Part shown: positions 11,936-24,247 of the stretch, piece by piece
Numbering within the stretch: the first letter of the stretch is position 1
Layout: the number at the start of each line of letters is the position of its first letter
Assembly: GCF_900187405.1 (NCBI RefSeq)
Contig: NZ_LT896716.1
Location: 3,286,753-3,350,752 of the forward strand
DNA: 64,000 nucleotides
DNA from: Geobacter sp. DSM 9736
GTDB lineage: Bacteria; Desulfobacterota; Desulfuromonadia; Geobacterales; Geobacteraceae
Direction: 5' to 3'
Notes under the pieces: generated by a model
What the model was told of the DNA's origin: nothing
What the model saw: only the letters and a program-made list of their open reading frames with translations
The model's database searches: none
Position numbers and translations under genes: made by a program

Positions 11936-12080
11936 GCTTCCTCCCAAATCAAAATATTGGTTTCTGTTAAGATTCAAAGGCGCTACATTTTCCCTTCGAA
12001 AGGGAGAATTGTCAACCCCGTCCTCTTGCCTATCGTGATGCAGGACAGGAGGCGGCTTTTTTTCAATTCCAGGAGGTCTC

Positions 12081-12677
12081 ATGACAGGACGGATATTCAG
12101 GCCCTTCAGCATAGGTGGCTTTACCATAACCCCCGAAGATGAACCTCTTACGCCGATGGGTGGAATTCCACTCGTGATGGGGAAGAAAGGGGCCTTCGGG
12201 TCGGGAGAGCACGAAACCACCCGTTCCTGCCTTGAACTTCTCGAACAGCTCCCACAGGTACGTGGCGCGAGGGTTCTAGATTTCGGAAGCGGTACCGGCA
12301 TCCTGGCTATTGCAGCCGTGAAGCTTGGTGCATCCTCTGTGGTTGCGCTCGACATAGATCCAAGGGCCGCCGTTTCATGTTCACGCAACATCGGCCTGAA
12401 CAATGTGCATGGGCTGGTGAATGCCGTTTGCGGGGAGCTGGCATGTCTGCGAGGCGGCAGCTATGATCTTGTACTTGCGAACATTTATGCTGATGTTCTC
12501 GGCAATGTTGCTGAGGAGCTTGTTGCCATGACCCGTCCGGGTGGGCTGGTCCTTCTTTCGGGGATACCGGTGCAGGATGACAGCGGGGTCCACGGCCTCT
12601 TTCTGCGGTACGGGTGCCGGACATTAAGGACCATCTTCCTGGACGAGTATCTGACCTTTCTCCTGGAGAAGGATTGA
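12081..12677 (+). CDS. PrmA-like class I SAM-dependent methyltransferase (short form)
   Basis: A 198-residue methyltransferase with AGGAGG at 12071-12076 before its ATG. It has the motif FGSGEHETTRSCL, which parallels FGTGTHPTT of ribosomal protein L11 methyltransferase, then motif I VLDFGSGTGILAIAA, the acidic residue of VVALDID and the catalytic-loop equivalent VLANIYADV. It lacks the N-terminal substrate-recruiting domain of PrmA, whose full-length gene is also in this window (47113-48030). The substrate is therefore probably not L11, or is recognised differently. The stop lies 61 bases before the cyclophilin gene on the same strand. Confidence 0.8.
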   Translation: MTGRIFRPFSIGGFTITPEDEPLTPMGGIPLVMGKKGAFGSGEHETTRSCLELLEQLPQVRGARVLDFGSGTGILAIAAVKLGASSVVALDIDPRAAVSCSRNIGLNNVHGLVNAVCGELACLRGGSYDLVLANIYADVLGNVAEELVAMTRPGGLVLLSGIPVQDDSGVHGLFLRYGCRTLRTIFLDEYLTFLLEKD

Positions 12678-12738
12678 CCAGGGGGGAAATTTCGCTTATA
12701 CCTTTACCATCGCATACCATTAAAAGGAGGAGCTGACC

Positions 12739-13320
12739 GTGAAAAAACTGTTTCTTGTGATCGGGATTTGTTTTGCCCTCTGCTGTGCCGTTCCTGTTTT
12801 GGCCGCGCAAGGGAAGAATCCGGTGGTCCAGATGGAAACTACACTCGGCACCATCAAGCTGGAGCTGTTTGAGAAGGAGGCCCCGATCAGCGTCAAGAAC
12901 TTTCTCGATTACGCCAAATATGGCTATTACAAGGGAACTATTTTCCATCGCGTGATTCCGGGATTCATGATTCAGGGAGGTGGCTTTACTCCCGACATGG
13001 TACCTAAAGAGGGCACCAAGGCACCCATCAAGAATGAAGCGGGAAACGGCCTGAAGAATGATCGGGGGACACTTGCCATGGCCCGCACGATGGTTGTCGA
13101 TTCAGCCACGGCCCAATTCTTCATCAACGTAGTTAACAACGACTTCCTCAATCATCGCGATGAGTCGCCGCAAGGGTTCGGGTACGCGGTTTTCGGAAAG
13201 GTTGTGGAGGGTATGGATGTGGTTGACGCCATCGCAGCCAGCAAAACAGGAGTCAACAAGGGATTTCGGGATGTCCCGGAGGCACCCGTGATTATCAAAT
13301 CCATCAAGATTTTGAGGTAG
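12739..13320 (+). CDS. Exported cyclophilin-type peptidyl-prolyl cis-trans isomerase
   Basis: A 193-residue protein starting at GTG 12739, with AAGGAGG at 12724-12730. An N-terminal Sec signal peptide ([22 protein letters not shown]) directs it to the periplasm. The cyclophilin core is intact: Arg of the active site in [15 protein letters not shown], then TLAMAR and the [10 protein letters not shown] strand, [17 protein letters not shown] and a C-terminal strand VIIKSIKI. It catalyses proline isomerisation during folding of exported proteins. A terminator follows at once. It may be cotranscribed with the methyltransferase in front, but the strong Shine-Dalgarno would also suit an independent unit. 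Confidence 0.93.
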
Positions 13321-13342
13321 GAATCTAAATAAAGGTTTGACC

Positions 13343-13367
13343 AGGGCGCCGAAGGGCGCCCTTTTTA
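13343..13367 (+). terminator. Rho-independent terminator after the cyclophilin gene
   Basis: AGGGCGCC (13343-13350) and GGCGCCCT (13355-13362) form an 8-bp stem with a GAAG loop, followed by TTTTTAT. It overlaps the last bases of the convergent resB-like gene. Confidence 0.85.
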
Positions 13368-14072
13368 TCTGCCTCTGCGTACGGCCAGAAGGACAACATT
13401 CCCAAGAGTAAAGAGCAGTGCTCCAGCGAGAGCAATCCCCGCACCTGGTTCCCGATGTACCTCGATCAGCGCGGCCCGCCGCGGCATAATCGCCACATCT
13501 TTCACGTATAACCCCACACCCTGATAGAAAACCGGCTCATTGGGTCTGGCAGTTTTGTACAGCTGGCGGCCCTCCACCGTCAGGGCCAGATCCGCAGAAA
13601 AGTCCGTAAGCATTCCCATTTGGCCGACGCTTCCTCTAATGGCAGTTACTCCGACGAGACTTCCATCCGGAAAACCGATTACGGACCCTTCCTCGACCTG
13701 CATAATCTGCTTATAGCTTCCGCCCGCACTAAGCAAATGGGCAAGGATGATGAGGAGAAAGCCGATGTGCATCACCTGTGGGGCGATGAGGATCAGAAAA
13801 CCGGTCTTGCCCCATTTGCTTCGCAACGATTCGATACTGCAGAGGATAGTGTTCAGTGCGAGCAGTGCAAGCAGCGCCAGGGAGCCCCACAGCCACCAGG
13901 AAGCGGCCAAGGGAGCTTCCCTGAGCCAGACGAAAAGGGGCAGATCGTTAATGCTTCCCGATTCCGCCGCGCCGCTGCTGAAAGATCCCGCTCCCAACAG
14001 AAGCATTACACCTGCAATGAGCCATATTCCAAAAGTAAGAGATGCCAGTTTCTGGTAGATGTTTCGCAGCAT
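13365..14072 (-). CDS. resB: ResB-like cytochrome c biogenesis protein
   Basis: A 235-residue membrane protein of the ResB/Ccs1 type (short form). Hydrophobic segments are seen at residues about 16-33 (FGIWLIAGVMLLLGAGSF), 58-77 (SWWLWGSLALLALLALNTIL), 93-115 (LILIAPQVMHIGFLLIILAHLL) and at the C-terminus (GIALAGALLFTLGNVVLLA). A periplasmic loop of about 95 residues lies before the last one. ResB works with CcsA in system II cytochrome c maturation, delivering haem and keeping apocytochrome thiols reduced. The His in QVMHIG is a possible haem-related residue. It follows ccsA by 21 bases, so the pair is an operon, as is usual for system II. Confidence 0.82.
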   Translation of the reverse strand: MLRNIYQKLASLTFGIWLIAGVMLLLGAGSFSSGAAESGSINDLPLFVWLREAPLAASWWLWGSLALLALLALNTILCSIESLRSKWGKTGFLILIAPQVMHIGFLLIILAHLLSAGGSYKQIMQVEEGSVIGFPDGSLVGVTAIRGSVGQMGMLTDFSADLALTVEGRQLYKTARPNEPVFYQGVGLYVKDVAIMPRRAALIEVHREPGAGIALAGALLFTLGNVVLLAVRRGR

Positions 14073-14093
14073 GACTTCCTTTCTTCCGTTGCA

Positions 14094-14813
14094 TCAGAAG
14101 CTGTGTGAGCTCTTCATAAGGAGACTGACGCCGAGGTAGGTGAAAAGCGCCACCCCGAGCCCTATTATCCCCCCCCATGCCACTGCGCGCTCCCATTGCG
14201 GGCCTTTGAGGCGCACGTGAAGGTAAAGTGTGTAAAAAAGCCAGAGTATGGATGTCCACAGTTCTTTAGGTGTCCAGAGCCAGTATGTCCCCCACGCGAA
14301 ATACCCCCAGATCCCTCCTGACACCATGGATGCTGAAAAGAAGGTGTAGCCGACGAGTGCCGCCCGGTACTGGAGGTCGAGCAAGCTTCTTTGTCTGTCT
14401 CGAAGGAAGAGAATGCCGAGGACTGCACCGATGCCGAAGAGAGCATATGCGAAGAAAGCGAGAGCAACGTGAAGCTCGAACCAGAAGGTCTTCAAGATCG
14501 GCGGGAGGGGCATCGAGAATGAGGGAAAAAGGAGTGCCGTCAGGGCGAAGAATCCTGCCAAGGCTCCTGCCGACCAGGAGAAGCGGTTTCGGTCACGTAC
14601 AGCCGGAGCGTACAGGAAAGGCACGGCCATGACAGCAATCGAGCAGGAAAAGAAGACAAGGGTGTCATGAGGGCCTATGAGTGGCAGACGTCCCAGAGCT
14701 ACCCCTCGCTGTGCGAGGTAGCAAAGTTCCACGCATGCTCCTGCCAGAAAAAAAAATCTTCGGTGGGAGCCGAACATAAAAAGGGCCGCAGATGCCAGAA
14801 TAAGCCATTTCAT
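14094..14813 (-). CDS. ccsA: CcsA-like haem transporter for cytochrome c maturation
   Basis: A 239-residue polytopic protein with about eight hydrophobic segments. It carries the periplasmic haem-handling signature of the CcmC/CcmF/CcsA family in the form WGTYWLWTPKELW, where the usual Asp of WxWDPKE is Thr. Conserved histidines appear in FELHVALAFF and LYLHVRL. With ResB it forms the system II synthetase that ligates haem to CxxCH motifs, a need explained by the cytochrome-rich lifestyle inferred for this organism. The start MKWLILASAALFMF is the only ATG fitting the first membrane segment. It is the first gene of the pair with resB. Confidence 0.82.
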   Translation of the reverse strand: MKWLILASAALFMFGSHRRFFFLAGACVELCYLAQRGVALGRLPLIGPHDTLVFFSCSIAVMAVPFLYAPAVRDRNRFSWSAGALAGFFALTALLFPSFSMPLPPILKTFWFELHVALAFFAYALFGIGAVLGILFLRDRQRSLLDLQYRAALVGYTFFSASMVSGGIWGYFAWGTYWLWTPKELWTSILWLFYTLYLHVRLKGPQWERAVAWGGIIGLGVALFTYLGVSLLMKSSHSF

Positions 14814-15104
14814 GGGATTCCTCGAGTTCAGAAGGAAGTTGCAGAAGGCAGCCTACATCGGGTGGGAAAGGAGGGTCAAGAATAAAAATGTTTTTGAGAA
14901 TACAGGCGGGGCAATGATTGGCTTTCTTGGGCGCCGAGGGTGGTAAGTTCCAGATACTGTCGTTGGCTGCCTTCCAAAAGCGGAGAACCTAATAATATCC
15001 TATGTCGGCGATGACTTATAGTATGAATAAAAAACTACCGACTGCCTCGAAATGTAGTTCAAAAACTAACATCTCGTTTTATTTTAACTTTTTATTTTTA
15101 GTGC
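14814..15104. other. Gene-free, AT-rich divergent intergenic region
   Basis: About 350 bases separate the ccsA start from the small Cys-pair gene at 15168. No coding frame with a ribosome binding site was found. The right part is markedly AT-rich (runs of T and A at 15070-15100), unlike the flanking genes, and ends in the promoter listed separately. The left part should hold the ccsA promoter, but none could be picked out with confidence. Confidence 0.6.
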
Positions 15105-15133
15105 TTGTAAAGATAAGGTGGAGGGCCTATAGT
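15105..15133 (+). promoter_or_regulatory. Candidate sigma-70 promoter of the small Cys-pair gene
   Basis: TTGTAA (15105-15110) and TATAGT (15128-15133) are separated by exactly 17 bases, behind a T/A-rich upstream tract that could act as an UP element. The predicted start of transcription lies about 28 bases before the gene. Confidence 0.5.
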
Positions 15134-15167
15134 GATCCTAAATTTGTGTGAGTGAAAGGAGCAGTAT

Positions 15168-15383
15168 ATGAAATGTCCGGTTTGCAGGAATCATGAGCAG
15201 TATGCGACGCTCGAAGTTCAGACGGAGGGATTTTCCGAGGAAATTAACACCTGCAGTATCTGTGGGACGGTTTGGGCCGTGAATCATGGGGCGATCGAAG
15301 TAGTGCGTGACCCTCAGGAGAAATCTTTTCTTGAGGCTGTTACAGAGTGTGTGGAGGGAGATGATTACCACCTTGCGGCCTGA
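15168..15383 (+). CDS. Small protein with two CxxC motifs, function unknown
   Basis: A 71-residue protein preceded by AAAGGAG eight bases before its ATG. It begins MKCPVCRN and has a second pair CSICG at residues 33-37, spaced as in a zinc ribbon or rubredoxin-like knuckle. The remainder is acidic (EEINT, EVVRDPQE, EGDDY) with no membrane segment or signal, so a cytoplasmic metal-binding protein is likely. Own promoter and terminator suggest a monocistronic transcript that could be abundant. I do not recognise the family. A regulatory or chaperone-like zinc ribbon is one possibility among several. Confidence 0.7.
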   Translation: MKCPVCRNHEQYATLEVQTEGFSEEINTCSICGTVWAVNHGAIEVVRDPQEKSFLEAVTECVEGDDYHLAA

Positions 15384-15428
15384 TACATTCCGTTAATAAT
15401 AGCCTCTGAGAGAGGGGCGCTGACGTTT

Positions 15429-15468
15429 GAAACCGCGACTACAGCAAGTCAGCGGTTTCTTTGTTTTT
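15429..15468 (+). terminator. Terminator overlapping the 3' end of uvrC
   Basis: GAAACCGC (15429-15436) pairs with GCGGTTTC (15452-15459), followed by TTTGTTTTT. The 3' arm and tail lie inside the last codons of the convergent uvrC gene. It would end the transcript of the 71-residue gene. The 15-base loop is rather long. Confidence 0.5.
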
Positions 15469-17310
15469 ACTGTCGGTAGGCTCTTCTTTTTCTTTGTGAA
15501 AATGGACCCATAGCGCTTCTGCTGCGCGTCGTGTCATTCCGCTTACCGCTGCCAGTTCTTCAAGGCTAGCCTGCTCCAATCTGGAGAGACTGCCGAAGTG
15601 GTTGAGCAGTGCCTTCCTCCGCACCGGTCCCACTCCCGGGATTTCATCGATTTTAGATGCCAGCGCAGCTTTCCCGCGCAGCTTCTTGTGGTATGTGATT
15701 GCAAACCTGTGAGCCTCGTCCCTGATTCTGGCGAGAAGGAGAAGAGGAGCAGAGTTCTGGCGCAGTATGAGCGGATTCTTTCTACCCGGAAGGAAGATTC
15801 GCTCGTCGCTGCGTGACACTTTATGTGCGGCGATGCCGCGTTCCACCCGGCTCTTTGCCAGAGATGCTGCGTGTACCCCCTGTATTCCCAGGTCTTCAAG
15901 CACCTTCAGGAGGATGTTCAACTGGCCGATTCCTCCATCGACAATAATCAGATCGGGAAGACCCTCCTCTTCCGTTCTGTTGAAGCGCCGCGCCAAGACC
16001 TCTCGCATCATGCCGAAATCATCAGGCTGGTCAAGTGACCGAATCCTGTAGTGTCGGTATGCGGTTTTGTCAGCCTTGCCATCAAAAAAAGAAACCCGGC
16101 TTCCGACCGCCAGCCGCCCTTGGGTATTTGATATGTCGTAACATTCAATCCTTCTGGGAATTCCTTCGAGACGAAGCCGCTCTTTGAGCTCCTGAAGCAC
16201 CGCTTCAGAGCCGGCCGCAGCAGCTGCTTTCTCCTGGGCAGCGTTGCGGGCATTTTTTGTCGCCAGCTGTACGATTTCCAGCTTTGATCCCTTTCGGGGG
16301 GTGTGCACTGTAACCTTCTTGCCCCGTTTTTCGGACAGGTAATCGGCGAGGGCTTCCGGTTCATCCAGAGGGATAGGTACAAGCACTTCCTCCGGGATGT
16401 AGACCTCTTTGCTGTAGTACTCCGCGAGAAAGGAGGCGATTCCTTCCCCATCATCAAGTTCCCATGCAAGTGAGTAGTTTCTGCTTCCAATGACGGTGCC
16501 GCCACGGATGAAGAGGAGCGCTATCTCAAGCCTGTTTGCTTCGTGGCAGAAGCCGAGAACATCCATGTCTCCACCCTGGGTCACCATCTTCTGTTTTTCC
16601 AGGGTAACCTCCACCGACTTGACCAAGTCGCGAAAACGCGCTGCTTCCTCATATTCTTCATTTGCCGCAGCCTGCGCCATCCGCTGTTTGTAGATCGCAA
16701 CGAGATTCTTCTTCTTCCCCTCCAGGAATAGCATAGCCCCTTCGGCAAGCGAGGCATACTGCTCAGGAGAAATCATTCCGTGGCATGGTGCGGAGCATTG
16801 CCGGATCTGGTAGAAAAGGCAGGGGCGCTTTCGAAGCCTGCATGTCTCAAGAGGGTAATGGCGGAGAGGGAATATCCTGTAGAGTTGCTTCAAGACTTCA
16901 CGGGCTGCAGCAGCAGAGGAATAGGGGCCGAAATAACGGGCTCCGTCTCTGGGAATTTTACGCACTATAGTCAGGCGGGGGAATTGATCCCTCATGTCCA
17001 TGCGAAGCGAGAAGTAAGTCTTGTCGTCCCGCAGGTTGAGGTTGTAACGAGGGTGGTGCTTCTTGATGAGAGTGTTTTCGAGAATCAGTGCTTCTTTTTC
17101 CGTGTCGGTCACAATGAATCGGATAGAGGCAACACGCTCCATTAGAAAACGGATATGCCACCGGGAGTCCTTGGAGGTGCTGAAATAGGAGCGTACCCGC
17201 TTTTTGAGGTCACGCGCCTTGCCGACATAGAGAACAGTGCCGTCGCTTCCCTCCATCAGATAAACGCCGGGGGCCGCTGGGAAAGAGTCGGTTTTTTCAA
17301 TAGTAATCAT
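15439..17310 (-). CDS. uvrC: Excinuclease ABC subunit C
   Basis: UvrC (623 residues) makes the two incisions flanking damaged DNA. The GIY-YIG nuclease domain is at the N-terminus ([19 protein letters not shown]), followed by the Cys-rich stretch around [20 protein letters not shown]. The UvrB-binding helix pair ([18 protein letters not shown]) comes next, then the RNase H-like nuclease domain ([21 protein letters not shown]) and the C-terminal helix-hairpin-helix ([20 protein letters not shown]). All family parts are present. Its 3' end overlaps the terminator of the convergent small gene. uvrA is in the same window but separated. Confidence 0.97.
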
Positions 17311-17447
17311 CGCTTCGAGTATAGCAGGGGAATTAGGTAAGGGACAATTCGTTTTGATGGTTCAAAGGGATGTCGAAGGCGTTGATACATTTCGTGGGTA
17401 ATCGTCCCAAAAACCAGAGGAGGAGCATACTTACAGGGGCTTCATCG

Positions 17448-17476
17448 TTGACAATGCGGGTGTTAGGTGATATTTT
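17448..17476 (+). promoter_or_regulatory. Candidate sigma-70 promoter of the AAAEK-repeat gene
   Basis: TTGACA (17448-17453), 17-base spacer, TATTTT (17471-17476), about 40 bases before the GTG start of the following gene. Confidence 0.5.
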
Positions 17477-17524
17477 GCGGCGAACTTTTTTGCCTATTCT
17501 CATGTAAACATTGAAAGGTCGATC

Positions 17525-20428
17525 GTGGATTATAAGAGAATCTTCCGCGCAGCAGCCAGCAGGTTCCTTCTGGGGCTTATGTTCCTTTCTTTGCTATCAG
17601 CAGGACCTGCTTTTCCTCTTGATTCCGAAGACGCTCAACTCTTCATCGGCGGATTCAATGCCTATCAGAAAAAGGACTACAAGGTTGCTGCAGACCAGAT
17701 GAATCTCGTCCTGCAAAAGTACCCTGACACGCCGTTAAGGGATATGGCGCTGTTCTGGCTTGCCAGAGCTCAATACAAATTAGAAAATCGGGAAGAGGCA
17801 GCCAAGAACATGGCGACCTTCTTCCGTGACTATCCGGAAAATCCCCTAAAGGCTACGGTGGAAGAGGACTTAGTGCAGCTGGCTTCCGCATACCAGCGCG
17901 GCGAGAAACTGCCGCCTGCACCGGCCGTGGAGCGGCAGTCAAAAGAGGCCGCAGCCGCCGCGGAGAAGGCCGCCGCGGAGAAAGCTGCCGCGGAGAAAGC
18001 TGCCGCGGAGAAAGCTGCCGCGGAGAAAGCTGCCGCGGAGAAAGCTGCCGCGGAGAAAGCTGCCGCGGAAAGAGCTGCCGCGGAAAGAGCTGCCGCGGAA
18101 AGAGCTGCTGCGGAAAGAGCTGCTGCGGAAAGAGCTGCTGAAAAGGCAGAAGCAATGCGCGCGGCTGTTGCTGCGGCACAGGCTGCAGAGAAAGCTGCTG
18201 CAGAGAAGGCTGCCGCCGAGAAGGCCGCTGCAGAGAAGGCCGCCGCCGAGAAGGCCGCCGCCGAAAAGGCCGCCGCCGAAAAGGCCGCTGCCGAAAAGGC
18301 CGCTGCCGAAAAGGCCGCTGCCGAAAAGGCCGCTGCCGAAAAGGCCGCTGCCGAAAAGGCCGCTGCCGAAAAGGCTGCTGCCGAAAAGGCTGCTGCCGAA
18401 AAGGCTGCTGCCGAAAAGGCTGCTGCCGAAAAGGCTGCTGCCGAAAAGGCTGCTGCCGAAAAGGCTGCTGCCGAAAAGGCTGCTGCCGAAAAGGCTGCTG
18501 CCGAAAAGGCTGCTGCCGAAAAGGCCGCTGCCGAAAAGGCCGCTGCCGAAAAGGCCGCTGCCGAAAAGGCCGCTGCCGAAAAGGCCGCTGCCGAAAAGGC
18601 CGCTGCGGAGAAGGCCGCTGCGGAGAAGGCCGCTGCGGAGAAGGCCGCTGCGGAGAAGGCCGCTGCGGAGAAGGCCGCTGCGGAGAAGGCCGCTGCGGAG
18701 AAGGTTCGCGTGGAGGCCCTGCGTAAGAAAGCAGAGGCAGAAAGGGAAGCCCGCGATAAGGCCCAGAAGGCAAAACGTCAGCCATCGGGAAGCGGAAAGC
18801 AAGAATCTGGAGAGAAAGCAGCACTAAGAGAGAAGGCCGTTGCTGAATACAAAGATCTAGTTACTCGTTTTCCAGGAACGGCAGCAGCGGCCGGTGCCGC
18901 TGCACGGCTTCGTGAAATGGGAGTCTCCTTTGATAGTCCTGTACCGCCGCAGGTGGCCGCCGCAACCGGCAACGCCCAAGTGCTTACACTTGAGGTGGGG
19001 CAGGCTGCAGATATAGGTTTTGACGTCCGAAATCCCCAGCAGGCGGGTGAGGTCAGCCGCAAGGTGTACATCCCCTTTTCAGTCACGAATCGGGGGAATG
19101 GCCCCGACAGCTACTACCTGGAGTCCGGTTTTCCCTCGGCCTATTCTGCGCAGTTTGCGGCAGCGAGCCGTCCGGACAGGGCTGTTAATCTAACGCCCGT
19201 CCTTGCTCCGGGAGAGAGCTTTGAAGGTGTCCTTTCGCTGACAGTCCCGCCCACTGCGGTCGATGGGACAAAAATAATCTATCCAGTAAAGGCCGCATCA
19301 CAATTCGCTCGGGAAGTCTCGCAGTCGCGGGACGTGATACTTGTCGCTTCCGCGCCACTGCTCCGCATGGTGCTCAAGCCGGACAAGCCTCAGCTGTTGC
19401 CGGGAGAGAGGGTGACGTATCGAGCCGCTCTTCTCAATATCGGTAGCGCTACGGCAACCGGGATTTCCATCCGCTTTAACTATCCGCCCCAGTACGAGCC
19501 GGTCGATTTCGTTCCTGCCGGGTTCAAGCAGGAGATGAAGGCGGCGTTGGTGATGGACGGGCTGCAGATCAAGTCGGGGGAGAAGAGGGAGTACACCGTG
19601 CAGTTCCAACTCAAGGATGAGGCCCTCGCACAGCAGGAGCTGTTTCTGCGTGGAGAGGCGGTAAACCAGGATCTGGGGACGCGGGATTCTTTTGTATCGA
19701 CTGTTTCGGTGGTGCGGCCGGTGAGCGATGTGCTGGTTCGCAGTAGCATTGGAAAGACTATGGTTATTCCAGGCCAGGTAGTAGCCATACCGCTGATTGT
19801 GACGAATGCGGGCAATGTGCGTGAAGATTTCGCCATCCGGGCAAAGCTCCCTGAGCGATATTCGCATTCATTCTTTCAGGACATGAACCGGGATGGCATC
19901 CGTCAGCCAAACGAGCCTGTGATAAATCACGTTGGCCCCCTGTCCCCCCGGGAGGATATGTATGTTGTGATGGAGGTTTCTACCTCTGCTACAGAGAAAG
20001 ACGGTACAGAAGCGCAGTTGTCAGTGGATCTTGAATCGGAAAACGCCCAGGGAGGAAGGGCTTCCGCTTCGGTAAGATTGCGGTTTTCGCGACCGGTGCT
20101 TGAACTTGCCATGGCCGGCAGGGGTGGGAGGCTCAGACCCGGTGACGTGAATGGACTCGAACTTTCCTGCATGAACACAGGTTCAAACATGGCGAAGAAT
20201 GTCGAGCTTGAGAGCACGCTGCCCGATCCGGTCGAACTGGTGGCTTCGGACCCGCCATTCACTGCGGGCAAGGGGGGAGCCTATCTCTGGCGCTTCGAAG
20301 AACTCGGCTCTGGGGAGAAGAGAAGCATCAAGCTCACTTATCGGCTGAAGCCGACGGCTCCGGTCGGGGCACACCTTCAGTTGAAAAACGTGCTCACGTA
20401 TCAGGATCAACTGGGGAACAGGTACTAG
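17525..20428 (+). CDS. Exported protein with TPR-like head, long AAAEK helical arrays and DUF11-like repeats
   Basis: The 967-residue product starts at GTG 17525 (GAAAGG lies nearby). A hydrophobic signal sequence (FLLGLMFLSLLSAGPAF) leads into a BamD/YbgF-like TPR segment (residues ~35-125: LFIGGFNAYQKKDYKVAADQ, FFRDYPENP). Then come two arrays of AAAEK/AAAER pentapeptides, 12 units at residues 144-203 and 34 units at 224-393, joined by a short irregular linker. A second TPR-like piece follows (AVAEYKDLVTRFPG). About 480 residues then carry at least four DUF11/NEW3-like beta-sandwich repeats (TNRGNGPDSYYLES, LNIGSATATGISI, TNAGNVREDF, MNTGSNMAKNVEL). No membrane anchor is seen at the C-terminus. 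The repeat part should be a long, salt-bridged alpha-helix. The function is unknown; a periplasm-spanning or surface scaffold is inferred. It abuts the LysM/TPR gene without a gap. Confidence 0.85.
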   Translation: MDYKRIFRAAASRFLLGLMFLSLLSAGPAFPLDSEDAQLFIGGFNAYQKKDYKVAADQMNLVLQKYPDTPLRDMALFWLARAQYKLENREEAAKNMATFFRDYPENPLKATVEEDLVQLASAYQRGEKLPPAPAVERQSKEAAAAAEKAAAEKAAAEKAAAEKAAAEKAAAEKAAAEKAAAERAAAERAAAERAAAERAAAERAAEKAEAMRAAVAAAQAAEKAAAEKAAAEKAAAEKAAAEKAAAEKAAAEKAAAEKAAAEKAAAEKAAAEKAAAEKAAAEKAAAEKAAAEKAAAEKAAAEKAAAEKAAAEKAAAEKAAAEKAAAEKAAAEKAAAEKAAAEKAAAEKAAAEKAAAEKAAAEKAAAEKAAAEKAAAEKAAAEKAAAEKAAAEKVRVEALRKKAEAEREARDKAQKAKRQPSGSGKQESGEKAALREKAVAEYKDLVTRFPGTAAAAGAAARLREMGVSFDSPVPPQVAAATGNAQVLTLEVGQAADIGFDVRNPQQAGEVSRKVYIPFSVTNRGNGPDSYYLESGFPSAYSAQFAAASRPDRAVNLTPVLAPGESFEGVLSLTVPPTAVDGTKIIYPVKAASQFAREVSQSRDVILVASAPLLRMVLKPDKPQLLPGERVTYRAALLNIGSATATGISIRFNYPPQYEPVDFVPAGFKQEMKAALVMDGLQIKSGEKREYTVQFQLKDEALAQQELFLRGEAVNQDLGTRDSFVSTVSVVRPVSDVLVRSSIGKTMVIPGQVVAIPLIVTNAGNVREDFAIRAKLPERYSHSFFQDMNRDGIRQPNEPVINHVGPLSPREDMYVVMEVSTSATEKDGTEAQLSVDLESENAQGGRASASVRLRFSRPVLELAMAGRGGRLRPGDVNGLELSCMNTGSNMAKNVELESTLPDPVELVASDPPFTAGKGGAYLWRFEELGSGEKRSIKLTYRLKPTAPVGAHLQLKNVLTYQDQLGNRY
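17954..18133 (+). repeat. 15-bp tandem array 1 (12 units, AAAEK/AAAER)
   Basis: Twelve uninterrupted 15-base units encode seven AAAEK then five AAAER. Synonymous variants are grouped in blocks: five of GCTGCCGCGGAGAAA, three of GCTGCCGCGGAAAGA and two of GCTGCTGCGGAAAGA, which shows growth by local duplication. Confidence 0.95.
18194..18703 (+). repeat. 15-bp tandem array 2 (34 units, AAAEK)
   Basis: Thirty-four uninterrupted units encode AAAEK without a single amino acid change. After six mixed units come blocks of 6 x GCCGCTGCCGAAAAG, 10 x GCTGCTGCCGAAAAG, 5 x GCCGCTGCCGAAAAG and 7 x GCCGCTGCGGAGAAG. Unit changes keep the reading frame. Short-read assembly could have altered the true copy number. 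Confidence 0.95.
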
Positions 20429-21034
20429 ATGAAGCGGGTAATCTCATCCTTTGCCGCTGGATTTGCGATTTCACTTGTTTCGGCTTCCTACGCCGCCGAG
20501 GGAGACTACTACCTGTACGCTCCCCGCAAGGCTGACCCTGCTGAGGTTTCCGCAGGGGAAACGGCCGTTCTGGTGCGGGAGATTGTTATTCGAAAAGGGG
20601 ACACCCTTCGGGCCATTTCCCTTGAACAAATAGGTAGGGCGGCTTACTTCCCTCAGATCCTCCTCTTCAATGACATAAGAAACCCGGATCTGATTTACGA
20701 GGGGAAGGCGTTGCGAGTACCGGTGCGGAAGGTTGCAGAAAAGAATGAGCTGAAGCGGGGCGGTAATGGAAAGAAGCGCGGCAGGCAACCCGCGAGGAAA
20801 GGTAAGGCAGGACCTGCAATAAAAGAGAGAAGAGCGGCGGGTGCTGAGGATATCCTGCGCCGGGATCAGGAACAGGCCCTGTTCGACCGTGCAGCCGCAG
20901 CGTATCGAAACGGCTCGTGTCGCGAGGTACTTCCGCTGCTTGAACAATTCCTGTCGAAGTTTCCGCGATCAAAGCATGTTCCGGATGCCATGTTCTACCG
21001 GGCGGACTGCTACCTCAAGTTGTCCCAGGAATAG
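20429..21034 (+). CDS. Exported LysM/TPR protein
   Basis: A 201-residue protein whose ATG directly follows the stop of the AAAEK gene, so translation is probably coupled. A signal peptide ends at SASYAA. A LysM-like or FimV-like module follows (IRKGDTLRAISLEQIGR, LLFNDIRNPDLIYEGKALRVPV), then a very basic linker (KRGGNGKKRGRQPARKGK) and a C-terminal TPR (FDRAAAAYRNGSCREVLPLL, FPRSKHVPDAMFYRADCY). LysM binds peptidoglycan glycan chains, and the basic linker could contact acidic polymers. The arrangement recalls pieces of FimV and of cell-pole or envelope scaffold proteins. I infer that it works with its upstream partner at the wall. It converges on a second LysM gene four bases away. Confidence 0.78.
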   Translation: MKRVISSFAAGFAISLVSASYAAEGDYYLYAPRKADPAEVSAGETAVLVREIVIRKGDTLRAISLEQIGRAAYFPQILLFNDIRNPDLIYEGKALRVPVRKVAEKNELKRGGNGKKRGRQPARKGKAGPAIKERRAAGAEDILRRDQEQALFDRAAAAYRNGSCREVLPLLEQFLSKFPRSKHVPDAMFYRADCYLKLSQE

Positions 21035-21038
21035 TTTA

Positions 21039-22076
21039 TTATTTGGAGGCGTCGGTCAGGAACACCTGGCCGGCACCATTCTCCACCAGGAAGCCAGCCG
21101 CTTCGGCACTCTCTCCGTCAGCTTCCCCCTCAACAGATCGGTATGTGCGCCCCAGTTGCGAGAGTAATTTTTCCGTCACCTTGTTGAATCCGCTACCCTC
21201 AACATCGATGAGCGTATACCCGTCCCTTTCAAGCAGGCGGAGCAGGGTGTAGTTGAACTGATCCTTCGGGGTGCAGTTCACGATGAATCGCCTTCCCCTT
21301 TCGATGAAGAAGCGATCCACCTTGACGCTCAGCGGATTTCCCCCTATGTTCGCCTCCAGCACCTCGTTTTCCCTTGTTTCAATGGCGAGAGCTGCCAATA
21401 TGCCGTCGATCAACTCCTCCCGTGTTGTAGAAGGGATTTTCTCGGTTTTGACTGGAACGGGATCCGCTTCCGCTGCAGGAGGAACCGCAGTTTCCGCCGC
21501 GTAAGCAGCCGGCTCGGGATCAGGTTCTAACTCCGGAGGAGCAGTTGCTGCTCGGGCTGTAACCGTGGAGCCTGCTGCAGTTTGCGGGGAATCCCCCCTT
21601 TGCCGCAACTTCCGCTGCTCGTGCGGATGTTTTGTGCCTGTACGTGACGGCAGGAGCAGCACTTGACCGACCGACAACTGCCTGATGTCCGAGATTCCAT
21701 TCAACCTGGCGACTTCGGGAATCAGCCTTTCGGCGCTGTCGTTGGAAAGGCCGAACTGTTTCATCAATATCCGGAACAGATGATCCCCAGGTTTTACTGT
21801 GTACTTGACGTGCCCAGAGGAACTCCGTGTCACTATGTCGTGACGCTTGGGTGCCGGTTTGGGAGGCAGTTTCCGAACTTTCTGCGGTGAGGGTGCAGGC
21901 TTGACACGGTCAAGGTCTTGGAGGTCGAGTTCGAATGAGGTTGTGGCTGCAGCGCACAAGGGCGATGCAAGCAGAAGCAAGATAATAATGCCGGCATGGG
22001 CAGGGAGGGTCGGAAGGAGCGCAAGGAATGCGCCGCTCCCTGACTTCCGTATTCGTTGCATGATTTCCTCAGTCAT
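21039..22076 (-). CDS. Exported LysM-domain protein of unknown function
   Basis: A 345-residue protein whose ATG at 22076 overlaps the stop of the preceding gene by eight bases; the ATG at 22061 is an alternative. An N-terminal hydrophobic segment (FLALLPTLPAHAGIIILLLLASP) acts as signal or anchor. A LysM domain follows (VKYTVKPGDHLFRILMKQFG to LSVGQVLLLPS, residues ~90-145). After a Pro/Ala-rich linker comes a C-terminal domain (~225-345) that ends with FNKVTEKLLSQLGRTYRSVEG and VFLTDASK. I do not recognise this domain. Peptidoglycan binding is supported by the LysM; the rest is unknown. It forms a two-gene unit with the membrane protein upstream. Confidence 0.75.
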   Translation of the reverse strand: MTEEIMQRIRKSGSGAFLALLPTLPAHAGIIILLLLASPLCAAATTSFELDLQDLDRVKPAPSPQKVRKLPPKPAPKRHDIVTRSSSGHVKYTVKPGDHLFRILMKQFGLSNDSAERLIPEVARLNGISDIRQLSVGQVLLLPSRTGTKHPHEQRKLRQRGDSPQTAAGSTVTARAATAPPELEPDPEPAAYAAETAVPPAAEADPVPVKTEKIPSTTREELIDGILAALAIETRENEVLEANIGGNPLSVKVDRFFIERGRRFIVNCTPKDQFNYTLLRLLERDGYTLIDVEGSGFNKVTEKLLSQLGRTYRSVEGEADGESAEAAGFLVENGAGQVFLTDASK

Positions 22077-23427
22077 TGAAAGTTATGACGAAAGCCTGAA
22101 TAATCGTGTCGCCGTCTCTCTTGTATACTATTACGCGCGCCCTGTCCGACAAGGTTCCCCGCTTTACGAGGTAACGCCCTTTTTTCTCCTTTGCTTCCAG
22201 CTGATAGTCCCTTACGCCTGTCATCTGGTGGATAACATTTGTGAAGAAGGAGCGAGGCAGCCCGTTTCCGCTTCTGTCTATGACCTGTAGAGCCTTTATC
22301 CTGGAAGCTTCACGGTATACCTTGTATTCGGCGGCAGCTGAAAGATATTTTTCCCACCCGGGATTGCTGCGGCCGTAATCCGTGACTACTCCTTCTCGTG
22401 GGATAAACCCTGGGAGTGATTGAGGAGTCGGCGGATTTGCCACTTGTGCGGAAGTGGGAAAAGGAGTTTTGGGTTGTACCTCGGCAGGGACAGGAGTCAC
22501 TGGTAATTTATCGGGTTGCTTGGTTTGTCCATTTGTAATCTGCGGAGGAGTCGCCAGAGATGTGGGTTTAGCAACACCGGGCTCGGTCCTGTTGAAAATA
22601 AAGAAAAGCAATGCTGCTGCGGTGAGCGACAGCGTCGAGACAGCGAGGATTGCATGATTATTTTTTTTTGCCGGAATTCGACTGAAAACTTCGTCGACGG
22701 TCGGCGCTGAGAATGGGGTTTCCTGTTCTTTCGGCCCGGAAGGAGGATAAGCCGATAAAAGACTGTCCAATTCTTCCTTGAAAGCCATGGAAGGTGCTAT
22801 CGCAGCGGGTGCTGCTGGTTCCCCTTTTACCGATACGCTATCCGATACGCTGGAAATTGCCTCAAGGGGGGTGCAGTCCGCATCGCCCCCAGCCGTCTTC
22901 AGGTTCGCTACCTCTAGAGGTTTAAAGCCGGCCTCATCTTCTCCTGTTTTGGCATCAGTCCCGGAGCCTGCACGAGGATCGACTTCTGCATTCTGTGCAG
23001 TGACTCCGTCTTTGTTTCCTGCTTTCAGATTAACGCGTGAGGAAAAGGCGCCGGTCGCGTCGCCTGCCATAGTCTCAGAGATAATTCCCCTTATGGCCAC
23101 TGAAATCTGAGCATCTTCTGCTGTGGTGTCGAGAATGGAATCAACCGTTAATTCTCCCCCTGGTGCAGACGAATCACCTTTCTCCGCAAAGAGAACCAAC
23201 TTTGCACCAAGGGGCGCATGGCTCCTGACATGTCTGGCGATGATTTCAGCTGATAACCCTGACAGGCGGCTCTGAAGGAAGATGATGGAGGGGGAGACAT
23301 TACCTATTTCAGCGACGCCGTCAGCCAGATTCGTAGCGATACGCAGAATGGCACCCGAAGGTGTTGCTGCTTCCGAAACAATCTGGTGCAGGCGTGGCTG
23401 GCTGGCAATAAGGAAAATGTTCAACAT
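22069..23427 (-). CDS. Membrane protein with receiver-like N-terminus and periplasmic C-terminus
   Basis: A 452-residue protein. Residues 1-85 look like a response-regulator fold (MLNIFLIASQPRLHQIV, PSIIFLQSRLSGLSAEIIARH, APLGAKLVLFAEKG), but the phosphoacceptor Asp position is taken by other residues, so it is probably a pseudo-receiver. Residues ~85-255 are low-complexity and acidic. One transmembrane helix is at 258-278 (HAILAVSTLSLTAAALLFFIF). The outer part is Pro-rich, then folded (PREGVVTDYGRSNPGWEKYL to VIVYKRDGDTIIQAFVITF). It could pass a cytoplasmic signal to the periplasm or the reverse. Its stop overlaps the start of the LysM gene, so both are coexpressed. The family is not recognised. 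Confidence 0.72.
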   Translation of the reverse strand: MLNIFLIASQPRLHQIVSEAATPSGAILRIATNLADGVAEIGNVSPSIIFLQSRLSGLSAEIIARHVRSHAPLGAKLVLFAEKGDSSAPGGELTVDSILDTTAEDAQISVAIRGIISETMAGDATGAFSSRVNLKAGNKDGVTAQNAEVDPRAGSGTDAKTGEDEAGFKPLEVANLKTAGGDADCTPLEAISSVSDSVSVKGEPAAPAAIAPSMAFKEELDSLLSAYPPSGPKEQETPFSAPTVDEVFSRIPAKKNNHAILAVSTLSLTAAALLFFIFNRTEPGVAKPTSLATPPQITNGQTKQPDKLPVTPVPAEVQPKTPFPTSAQVANPPTPQSLPGFIPREGVVTDYGRSNPGWEKYLSAAAEYKVYREASRIKALQVIDRSGNGLPRSFFTNVIHQMTGVRDYQLEAKEKKGRYLVKRGTLSDRARVIVYKRDGDTIIQAFVITFND

Positions 23428-23578
23428 CTTGTCCAGGAGGGGGGATCTACCCCGTGTGGTATGGCGGGTAGTGCCGGTAACTAGCAGGCACTATAATGTA
23501 GCAAGCAGGTTTTCAGCGCAACAGGTTTTTGCACCCGCAGTTTAAGCATTCACAGCTGGCATGGCAGGTCTGTCTGCT

Positions 23579-24247
23579 TCAGATGGGGCCGAGCATTTCT
23601 TGCCGGAACCGCTCGATGCCGACCGAGTCTATTATCCGTCCCAACCTGTTATGGTTGGTGCTCATCCGGCAAAAGGTCATAATCTTGTCTACTAATGCCA
23701 GGACCTCATCCTGCGACGAAACATTATCGATGAGCATGTCGGCGAGACGTGGGCGCGGTCCTGCGCTTCCGCCTACCAAGATCCGCCAGCCTTTGAGCGT
23801 ACCCAGGATGCCGATATCCTTGACGGCAGCTTCAGCACAGGAGACCAGGCACCCCGAAACGCCGATCTTCAGTTTGTTGGGCAGTTCCATGCCATGGTAT
23901 CTGCGGTCGAGCTCAAGGCCGAGCGAAACGGAATCCTGCACGCCGCGCTTGCAGCACGTGCTCCCCGGACAGATCTTTACGCTGCGCACACGATGCCCGA
24001 GCACTGCGCCGGGCGTCATGCCTAGATCGATCCATACCTTGTCGAGGTCCTCTTCCCGGATGCCGATAAGGGCGATTCTTTGCGCGGATGTAAGCTTCAG
24101 AGCCCGGACCCCGTATTTTTCCGCCACATCGCATATGCTACGAAGCTGGGATGTAGTGACGAACCCGCCGGGCAGGTGGGGGGCTATAGCGTATGTCTCT
24201 TTATCGCTTTGGACGATGGCATGTTTTGAAGGTAGATCTTTTTTCAT
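23579..24247 (-). CDS. Small nitrite/sulfite reductase-like siroheme and 4Fe-4S protein
   Basis: A 222-residue protein. The N-terminal ~65 residues match the ferredoxin-like half-domain of nitrite/sulfite reductases (YAIAPHLPGGFVTTSQLRSI, LKLTSAQRIALIG). Then come the siroheme/4Fe-4S cysteines CPGSTCCKRG and SGCLVSC, spaced as C-x5-C ... C-x3-C, and a GWRILVGGSAGPRPRLAD segment typical of these enzymes. Full-size enzymes contain two such repeats; this is one. Related single-repeat proteins occur in anaerobes and are often listed as nitrite/sulfite reductase small forms. The substrate cannot be read from the sequence, and partner flavin subunits are not adjacent. Confidence 0.82.
   Translation of the reverse strand: MKKDLPSKHAIVQSDKETYAIAPHLPGGFVTTSQLRSICDVAEKYGVRALKLTSAQRIALIGIREEDLDKVWIDLGMTPGAVLGHRVRSVKICPGSTCCKRGVQDSVSLGLELDRRYHGMELPNKLKIGVSGCLVSCAEAAVKDIGILGTLKGWRILVGGSAGPRPRLADMLIDNVSSQDEVLALVDKIMTFCRMSTNHNRLGRIIDSVGIERFRQEMLGPI

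Follow-up and report, generated by a model that had tools for sequence, protein, structure and literature searches.

The DNA analyzed here (the window; 64,000 nucleotides of Geobacter sp. DSM 9736, contig NZ_LT896716.1) encodes a 967-residue protein whose middle part, a linker of about 300 residues, carries long arrays of the pentapeptide AAAEK. We propose that the protein is probably a lineage-specific one of the periplasm (envelope), in which the repeat-expanded arrays form a mostly helical spacer, and that this spacer is not an exact ruler. It would hold a head of tetratricopeptide repeats (TPRs) apart from a tail of four immunoglobulin (Ig)-like domains. Its composition (Ala, Glu-Lys pairs, and near-zero Pro or Gly) is kept in most members of the family and its length drifts fast, in the window through gain or loss of 15-bp units.

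Residues 224 to 393 are 34 exact AAAEK units as counted in the assembled sequence (array 2; positions 18194 to 18703 of the window, plus strand), and residues 144 to 203 are 12 AAAE[K/R] units (array 1; 7 AAAEK and 5 AAAER; positions 17954 to 18133). A sequence-only reading of the window had counted 34 units without one amino acid change and 12 more in front, and both counts were confirmed; Tandem Repeats Finder (TRF) independently placed an array at 18182 to 18704 (period, 15; 34.9 copies; 97% matches; score, 773). A run of 34 AAAEK units cannot be a product of chance. The DNA of array 2 consists of 8 distinct 15-mers in blocks, including runs of 10, 7, 6, and 5 identical neighbors, and the picture is one of arrays that arose via tandem duplication of a 15-bp unit. 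Since array 2 was chosen for its unchanged peptide, all 13 codon differences between its adjacent units are synonymous. Its 8 unit types require approximately 8 base changes, all synonymous, against a random expectation of 24 to 29% synonymous changes; the chance of seven synonymous changes out of seven is 5e-5 to 1.7e-4. One of the five codon differences between adjacent units of array 1 alters a residue (Lys to Arg). Selection against amino acid change has probably acted on the arrays. The own genome, searched with the whole 967-residue protein, yielded nothing at E values of ≤0.001 outside the locus. Three open reading frames (ORFs) in other frames lie over the array (17853 to 18824, minus strand; 17939 to 18802, minus strand; 18168 to 18827, plus strand; 323, 287, and 219 residues, respectively); because a stop-free 15-bp repeat stays open in several frames, these overlapping frames are no evidence of genes.

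Relatives were searched for with the Ig region as the query in 147 genomes of Geobacter relatives, 116 of which (own genome included) gave a match, some of the matches being weak or merely to a shorter paralog. We examined 101 loci from 100 of these 116 genomes (100 members, window included, plus the paralog L110); 14 further loci were omitted because they were partial or, from their frame lengths and scores, seemed to repeat loci already included. Linkers were compared among 95 members, window included, after L110 and five loci with a frame lacking a recognizable N terminus (L015, L024, L026, L092, and L111) had been dropped. In a sample of the phylum, 8 of 395 genomes, all from the same order, matched across the whole 536-position model, and 5 others matched partially. 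Identity of the Ig region to that of the window was 39 to 63% (58 rows), and the terminal tyrosine (Y967) was invariant in the 59-row alignment. The window's 34 units aside, exact AAAEK runs reached at most 13 units, and 47 of the 95 members had no AAAEK run, so the 34-fold run is, judged from the sequences compared, an expansion of the window's lineage. An assembly artifact was rejected as the whole explanation: the window's genome is one contig, and AAAEK runs of at least 3 units are present in 16 of the 95 members, window included.

Linker length ranged from 48 to 569 residues (median, 219); thus, orthologs with different array lengths, a search for which the sequence-only reading had suggested, exist. 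The same reading had proposed a periplasm-spanning ruler or strut, in which helix length would fix the distance between the inner and outer membranes. The protein is probably exported, long, and predicted to be helical, array 2 by itself would be about 25 nm long, and some close pairs share a linker length (L066/L067, 202/202 residues; L083/L089, 343/343) or nearly so (L048/L054, 109/114), all of which speaks for a ruler. Against it, linkers often differ in length between members whose Ig regions are nearly identical (L016/L018, 96.3% identity and 320 versus 211 residues; L043/L044, 98.3% and 569 versus 493; L055/L056, 96.3% and 355 versus 309), that is, differences of up to 109 residues (16 nm if helical) at 96% identity and of 76 at 98%. 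The longest Pro/Gly-free stretch, if helical, would exceed 25 nm in 52 and 50 nm in 5 of the 95 members, with a maximum of 560 residues, or 84 nm. Eight linkers are not of the helical type (see below), and no hydrophobic segment beyond the signal peptide was seen in the protein by eye. Lengthening of Escherichia coli Lpp (lpp+14 and lpp+21) increased the intermembrane distance and destroyed Rcs signaling, according to an excerpt of PMC5736177, and real rulers therefore seem to tolerate little. An exact ruler is unlikely because near-identical pairs differ in length and 8 of the 95 linkers are poor in A, E, K, and R; a ruler tuned per species to envelope width is possible. The ruler or strut as first proposed we regard as very unlikely. 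Linker length also correlated with the length of the protein encoded next door, described below (Spearman coefficient, 0.42; P = 3e-5; 91 loci), a correlation that we did not use, as it was not borne out by independent tree pairs (median P, 1), few of which were informative.

Composition was kept far better than length. The fraction A+E+K+R was at least 0.6 in 84 of the 95 linkers (referred to here as helical type), and Pro and Gly accounted for 67 of the 15404 linker-core residues (0.4%) in these 84 members. Within linkers, residue identity peaked at spacings of 5, 10, 15, 20, etc., most strongly at 10. The A+E+K+R fraction fell below 0.5 in 8 of the 95 members, with linkers of 48 to 139 residues; seven of these are Pro-rich (at least 8 prolines), and that of L105 has 2 prolines. 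In a rapidly built Ig-region tree, the eight members amount to two changes, both forced by starred branches. These data also bear on a near-neutral alternative, a low-complexity stretch between two domains whose growth and shrinkage by slippage would simply be tolerated. Fast length change and the replacement of the helical type in 8 of the 95 members would fit such a stretch. The near absence of Pro and Gly from the 84 linker cores, the period of 5 and 10, and an order of charged residues shared by all 83 helical-type relatives (see below) argue against it, as do the changes in array 2, all synonymous, with the reservation that a perfect array had been picked. We consider neutrality rather unlikely; linker composition looks to be under selection even if linker length is not.

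The spacer put forward here differs from the helices to which it is most readily compared. Like engineered (EAAAK)n linkers, the arrays are built of pentads with three Ala and one each of Glu and Lys; unlike them, AAAEK has Lys immediately after Glu, so that the pairs are K(i)-E(i+4), the reverse of E(i)-K(i+4). AAAEK had been described as a circular permutation of EAAAK, with Glu-Lys salt bridges at the i to i+4 type of spacing. It is not one, the permutations of EAAAK being AAAKE, AAKEA, AKEAA, and KEAAA, and equivalence of the two units is contradicted by the window's linker, which holds 50 K/R(i)-E/D(i+4) pairs versus 6 E/D(i)-K/R(i+4) pairs. The former order exceeded the latter in all 83 helical-type members besides the window (summed pairs, 2047 versus 606; shuffled sequences, 804 and 805), and E/D directly before K/R was enriched in helical-type linkers (1855 versus 807 expected). 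The family is therefore characterized by the EK dipeptide pattern rather than by that of EAAAK. The order flips at spacing 3, with E/D preceding K/R 1307 times versus 701 (4 versus 2 in the window's linker), and the more stabilizing order is therefore not absent from the family's linkers overall. The K-before-E order at i, i+4 is reported as less stabilizing in an excerpt of PMC5812594, and "perfect rigid helix," as the array had been called, is not a safe description given the model discussed below. Stable single alpha-helices (SAHs; ER/K motifs) are likewise long charged helices without a hydrophobic seam and with a spacer role; according to the same excerpt, their content of E, K, and R is extremely high, and E ahead of K/R is the stabilizing order. 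Array 2 differs from them in being 60% Ala and only 40% charged and in that the reverse i+4 order dominates. On geometric grounds, a period of 5 corresponds to a turn of 140 degrees per unit, so no helix face would stay constant and a two-stranded coiled coil would be unfavored.

The gene and its immediate partner are organized as follows (positions in the window; all on the plus strand; domain borders of the Ig-like domains by eye).
17525 to 20428, plus: gene for the 967-residue protein (signal peptide, TPR, A/E/K linker, TPR-like helix pair, four Ig-like domains), from the ORF with its GTG start, the 59-row alignment, Pfam, and AlphaFold2 (AF2)
17525 to 17617, plus: putative signal peptide, residues 1 to approximately 29 to 31, no lipobox (model helix 3 to 25; alignment positions 29/31)
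17624 to 17905, plus: TPR head, YfiO/YbgF-like, residues 34 to 127 (PF13525, 9.1e-9; TPR_6, 1.6e-6; TIGR02795, 8e-12, below its cutoff)
17954 to 18133, plus: array 1, 12 AAAE[K/R] units (sequence count)
18134 to 18193, plus: irregular 20-residue break between arrays 1 and 2 (read from the sequence)
18194 to 18703, plus: array 2, 34 exact AAAEK units with a 15-bp DNA period (TRF; unit count)
18824 to 18916, plus: TPR-like helix pair, conserved, C-terminal to the linker, residues 434 to 464 (consensus REKAIAQYK..YPGS..AAAKL.ELGV; C-terminal model)
19013 to 19351, plus: Ig-like domain 1, residues approximately 497 to 609 (AF2 strands; Ig_VWA7 at 514 to 595)
19361 to 19696, plus: Ig-like domain 2, residues approximately 613 to 724 (AF2 strands; NPCBM_assoc at 626 to 664)
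19730 to 20086, plus: Ig-like domain 3, residues approximately 736 to 854 (AF2 strands)
20099 to 20404, plus: Ig-like domain 4, residues approximately 859 to 960 (AF2 strands; DUF11 at 878 to 944)
20429 to 21034, plus: partner gene (signal-peptide-like start, LysM, TPR; LysM, 9.9e-5; YfiO, 0.0025, below its cutoff)

In the full-length AF2 model, the linker is predicted as two long helices (residues 138 to 261 and 270 to 416), in agreement with the helical array assumed earlier. The C-terminal model (mean predicted local distance difference test score [pLDDT], 87.7; predicted template modeling score, 0.57) contains four Ig-like sandwiches and, in its own numbering, the TPR-like pair as helices 2 to 15 and 20 to 31. 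A sequence search of the PDB gave no relative of the Ig region (best E value, 0.2), whose fold matches were generic Ig domains. Several matches were set aside. The best stretches of Extensin_1 (Pfam, below cutoff) and HC2 (Pfam, above cutoff) fall on the array, the latter extending into the linker end (residues 263 to 436), and both were read as composition matches, as were the phmmer hits obtained in the PDB with the N-terminal half (TolA, CatSper2, and sigma factors). The NCBIfam models choice_anch_T (24.1 versus a cutoff of 70 bits) and T9SS_PorW_SprE (31.1 versus 250) were rejected. The TPR head resembles CpoB/YbgF and BamD (YfiO); no other part of the protein does. For CpoB/YbgF (TIGR02795), the protein scored 45.8 versus a cutoff of 90.1 bits, and two other loci in the genome pass; for BamD/YfiO (TIGR03302), it scored 37.2 versus 81.4 bits, and the head passes Pfam YfiO (35.8 versus 25). 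A search for RNA elements in positions 12000 to 24000 gave three matches, all under the gathering score.

The protein is probably exported, as the sequence-only reading had supposed. Its N terminus is hydrophobic, and 57 of the 59 members in the alignment have small residues at aligned positions 29/31, resembling a signal peptidase I site; the window's own protein is not among these 57 (see below). Cys occupies position 31, directly before the presumed mature start, in 21 of the 59 members and is preceded by G, A, or S in none of them. In 7 of the 95 members, the N-terminal segment contained a lipobox-like pattern; at aligned position 31, the count was 0 of 59.

The partner gene starts at the base after the first gene's stop codon, and a LysM-TPR gene lies downstream in 96 of the 100 loci, window included. 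The LysM-TPR protein would probably tie the assembly to peptidoglycan, and the two proteins may interact and would then serve as an envelope scaffold or a tether with slack. Upstream, in the opposite direction, lies uvrC in many relatives; in six loci with upstream frames listed, an ammonium-transporter-like gene (named by eye) lies between uvrC and the family gene. The immediate neighbors in the window and in many relatives are uvrC and the LysM-TPR gene. In the window, two genes on the minus strand converge with the gene pair, one encoding a second LysM protein (21039 to 22076) and one a protein without a Pfam match (22069 to 23427), relatives of which occur near the gene pair in many genomes.

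This arrangement also bears on a different placement of the protein, beyond the outer membrane, where the Ig-like domains would be a binding tip on a helical stalk. Fold matches of the Ig region include Ig-like domains of pilins, antigen I/II, and integrin legs, and linkers that would exceed the periplasm are more easily placed outside. Such Ig-like folds are generic, however, the LysM partner points to peptidoglycan, and no anchoring or surface-export domain exceeded its cutoff in the Pfam and NCBIfam scans; we find a surface stalk quite unlikely. A bolder form of the proposal is that the TPR-helix-Ig protein and its LysM-TPR partner constitute an undescribed trans-envelope tether, widespread in the order, with a reach set by DNA repeat copy number, lineages (and perhaps cells within a population) differing via replication slippage. 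This we offer as speculation with little expectation that it is correct; if true, slippage in a short DNA repeat (15 bp here) would set tether length.

The closest known likeness is to domain II of TolA, also an Ala-rich A/E/K/D stretch in an envelope protein, with AAAEK pentads in the E. coli-type chain. In an excerpt of PMC12204202, domain II varies among species in length and in its helical or Pro-rich character, TolA proteins do not as a rule have the helical form, and domain II length correlates weakly with TonB length (0.28). The linker could belong to a TolA-like force transducer, its helix carrying the pull of an inner membrane motor to an outer partner, and both the composition and the variability of domain II would fit. 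An Ala-rich helical middle domain of the TolA type is indeed present, as a compositional likeness and not as homology: the TolA match scored 28.5 bits with a bias of 141.5, and weak TolA-like frames elsewhere in the genome did not exceed the cutoff. The window protein differs in its TPR head, its four Ig-like domains, and its far more regular repeat (34 exact units). Its Pfam and NCBIfam scans contained no TolA family, and its C terminus models as Ig-like sandwiches, not as domain III. By eye, residues 1 to 45 lack the S-x-H-x-L-x-S (SHLS) anchor motif (as given in the excerpt of PMC12204202), and a signal-peptide-like site is found in 57 of 59 members instead. Among the immediate neighbors, the sole genes checked, there was no tolQ, tolR, tolB, or pal; uvrC and the LysM-TPR gene adjoin. 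Membership in the TolA family fails because of domain III, the anchor motif, and the immediate gene neighbors, and a TolA-like transducer is highly improbable.

Several observations weigh against the mostly helical, envelope-located spacer that we favor. Because 8 of the 95 members are without a helical-type linker, the helix is not essential to the family. The pLDDT of the linker is only approximately 44 to 75 (block values over the arrays), and AF2 breaks the helix at residues 262 to 269, within the perfect array. Many relatives come from draft or metagenome assemblies, in which repeats may be collapsed and lengths wrong. The synonymous-change argument for array 2 loses weight because a peptide-perfect array was chosen and because changes are carried from unit to unit by gene conversion. 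At the presumed cleavage site, the window protein is among the 2 exceptions in 59, having Pro at position 31, and its cleavage would need the GPA site two residues upstream. The LysM-TPR partner was not found in 4 of the 100 loci (L009, L010, and L013, of one genus, and L102), and the link to the LysM protein is one of gene neighborhood alone.

In the 34-unit array, helix design has been put to a natural experiment that combines Ala with Glu-Lys pairs in the order held to be weaker, and this order also prevails in all 83 relatives with helical-type linkers. Geobacter relatives are known for extracellular electron transfer. The family is widespread among them and well conserved at both ends, and none of the papers retrieved on Geobacter together with TPR, LysM, TolA, or DUF11 describes it, as judged by titles, the openings of abstracts, and an excerpt of PMC12204202; a search for AAAEK gave a single paper, on another subject.

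Three further observations concern relatives of the protein. L110 (genome G007, contig 5) is a 916-residue paralog that shares the TPR head and has an A/E/K linker of 489 residues and a partial Ig region. L015 (genome G039) is a 754-residue frame without the N-terminal domain that opens with RKPLPRKPL..., the repeat apparently lying in another frame, pointing to an indel within it or to misassembly. In many genomes, a second protein (often approximately 430 to 690 residues) matches positions of approximately 60 to 300 of the Ig region at approximately 30% identity.

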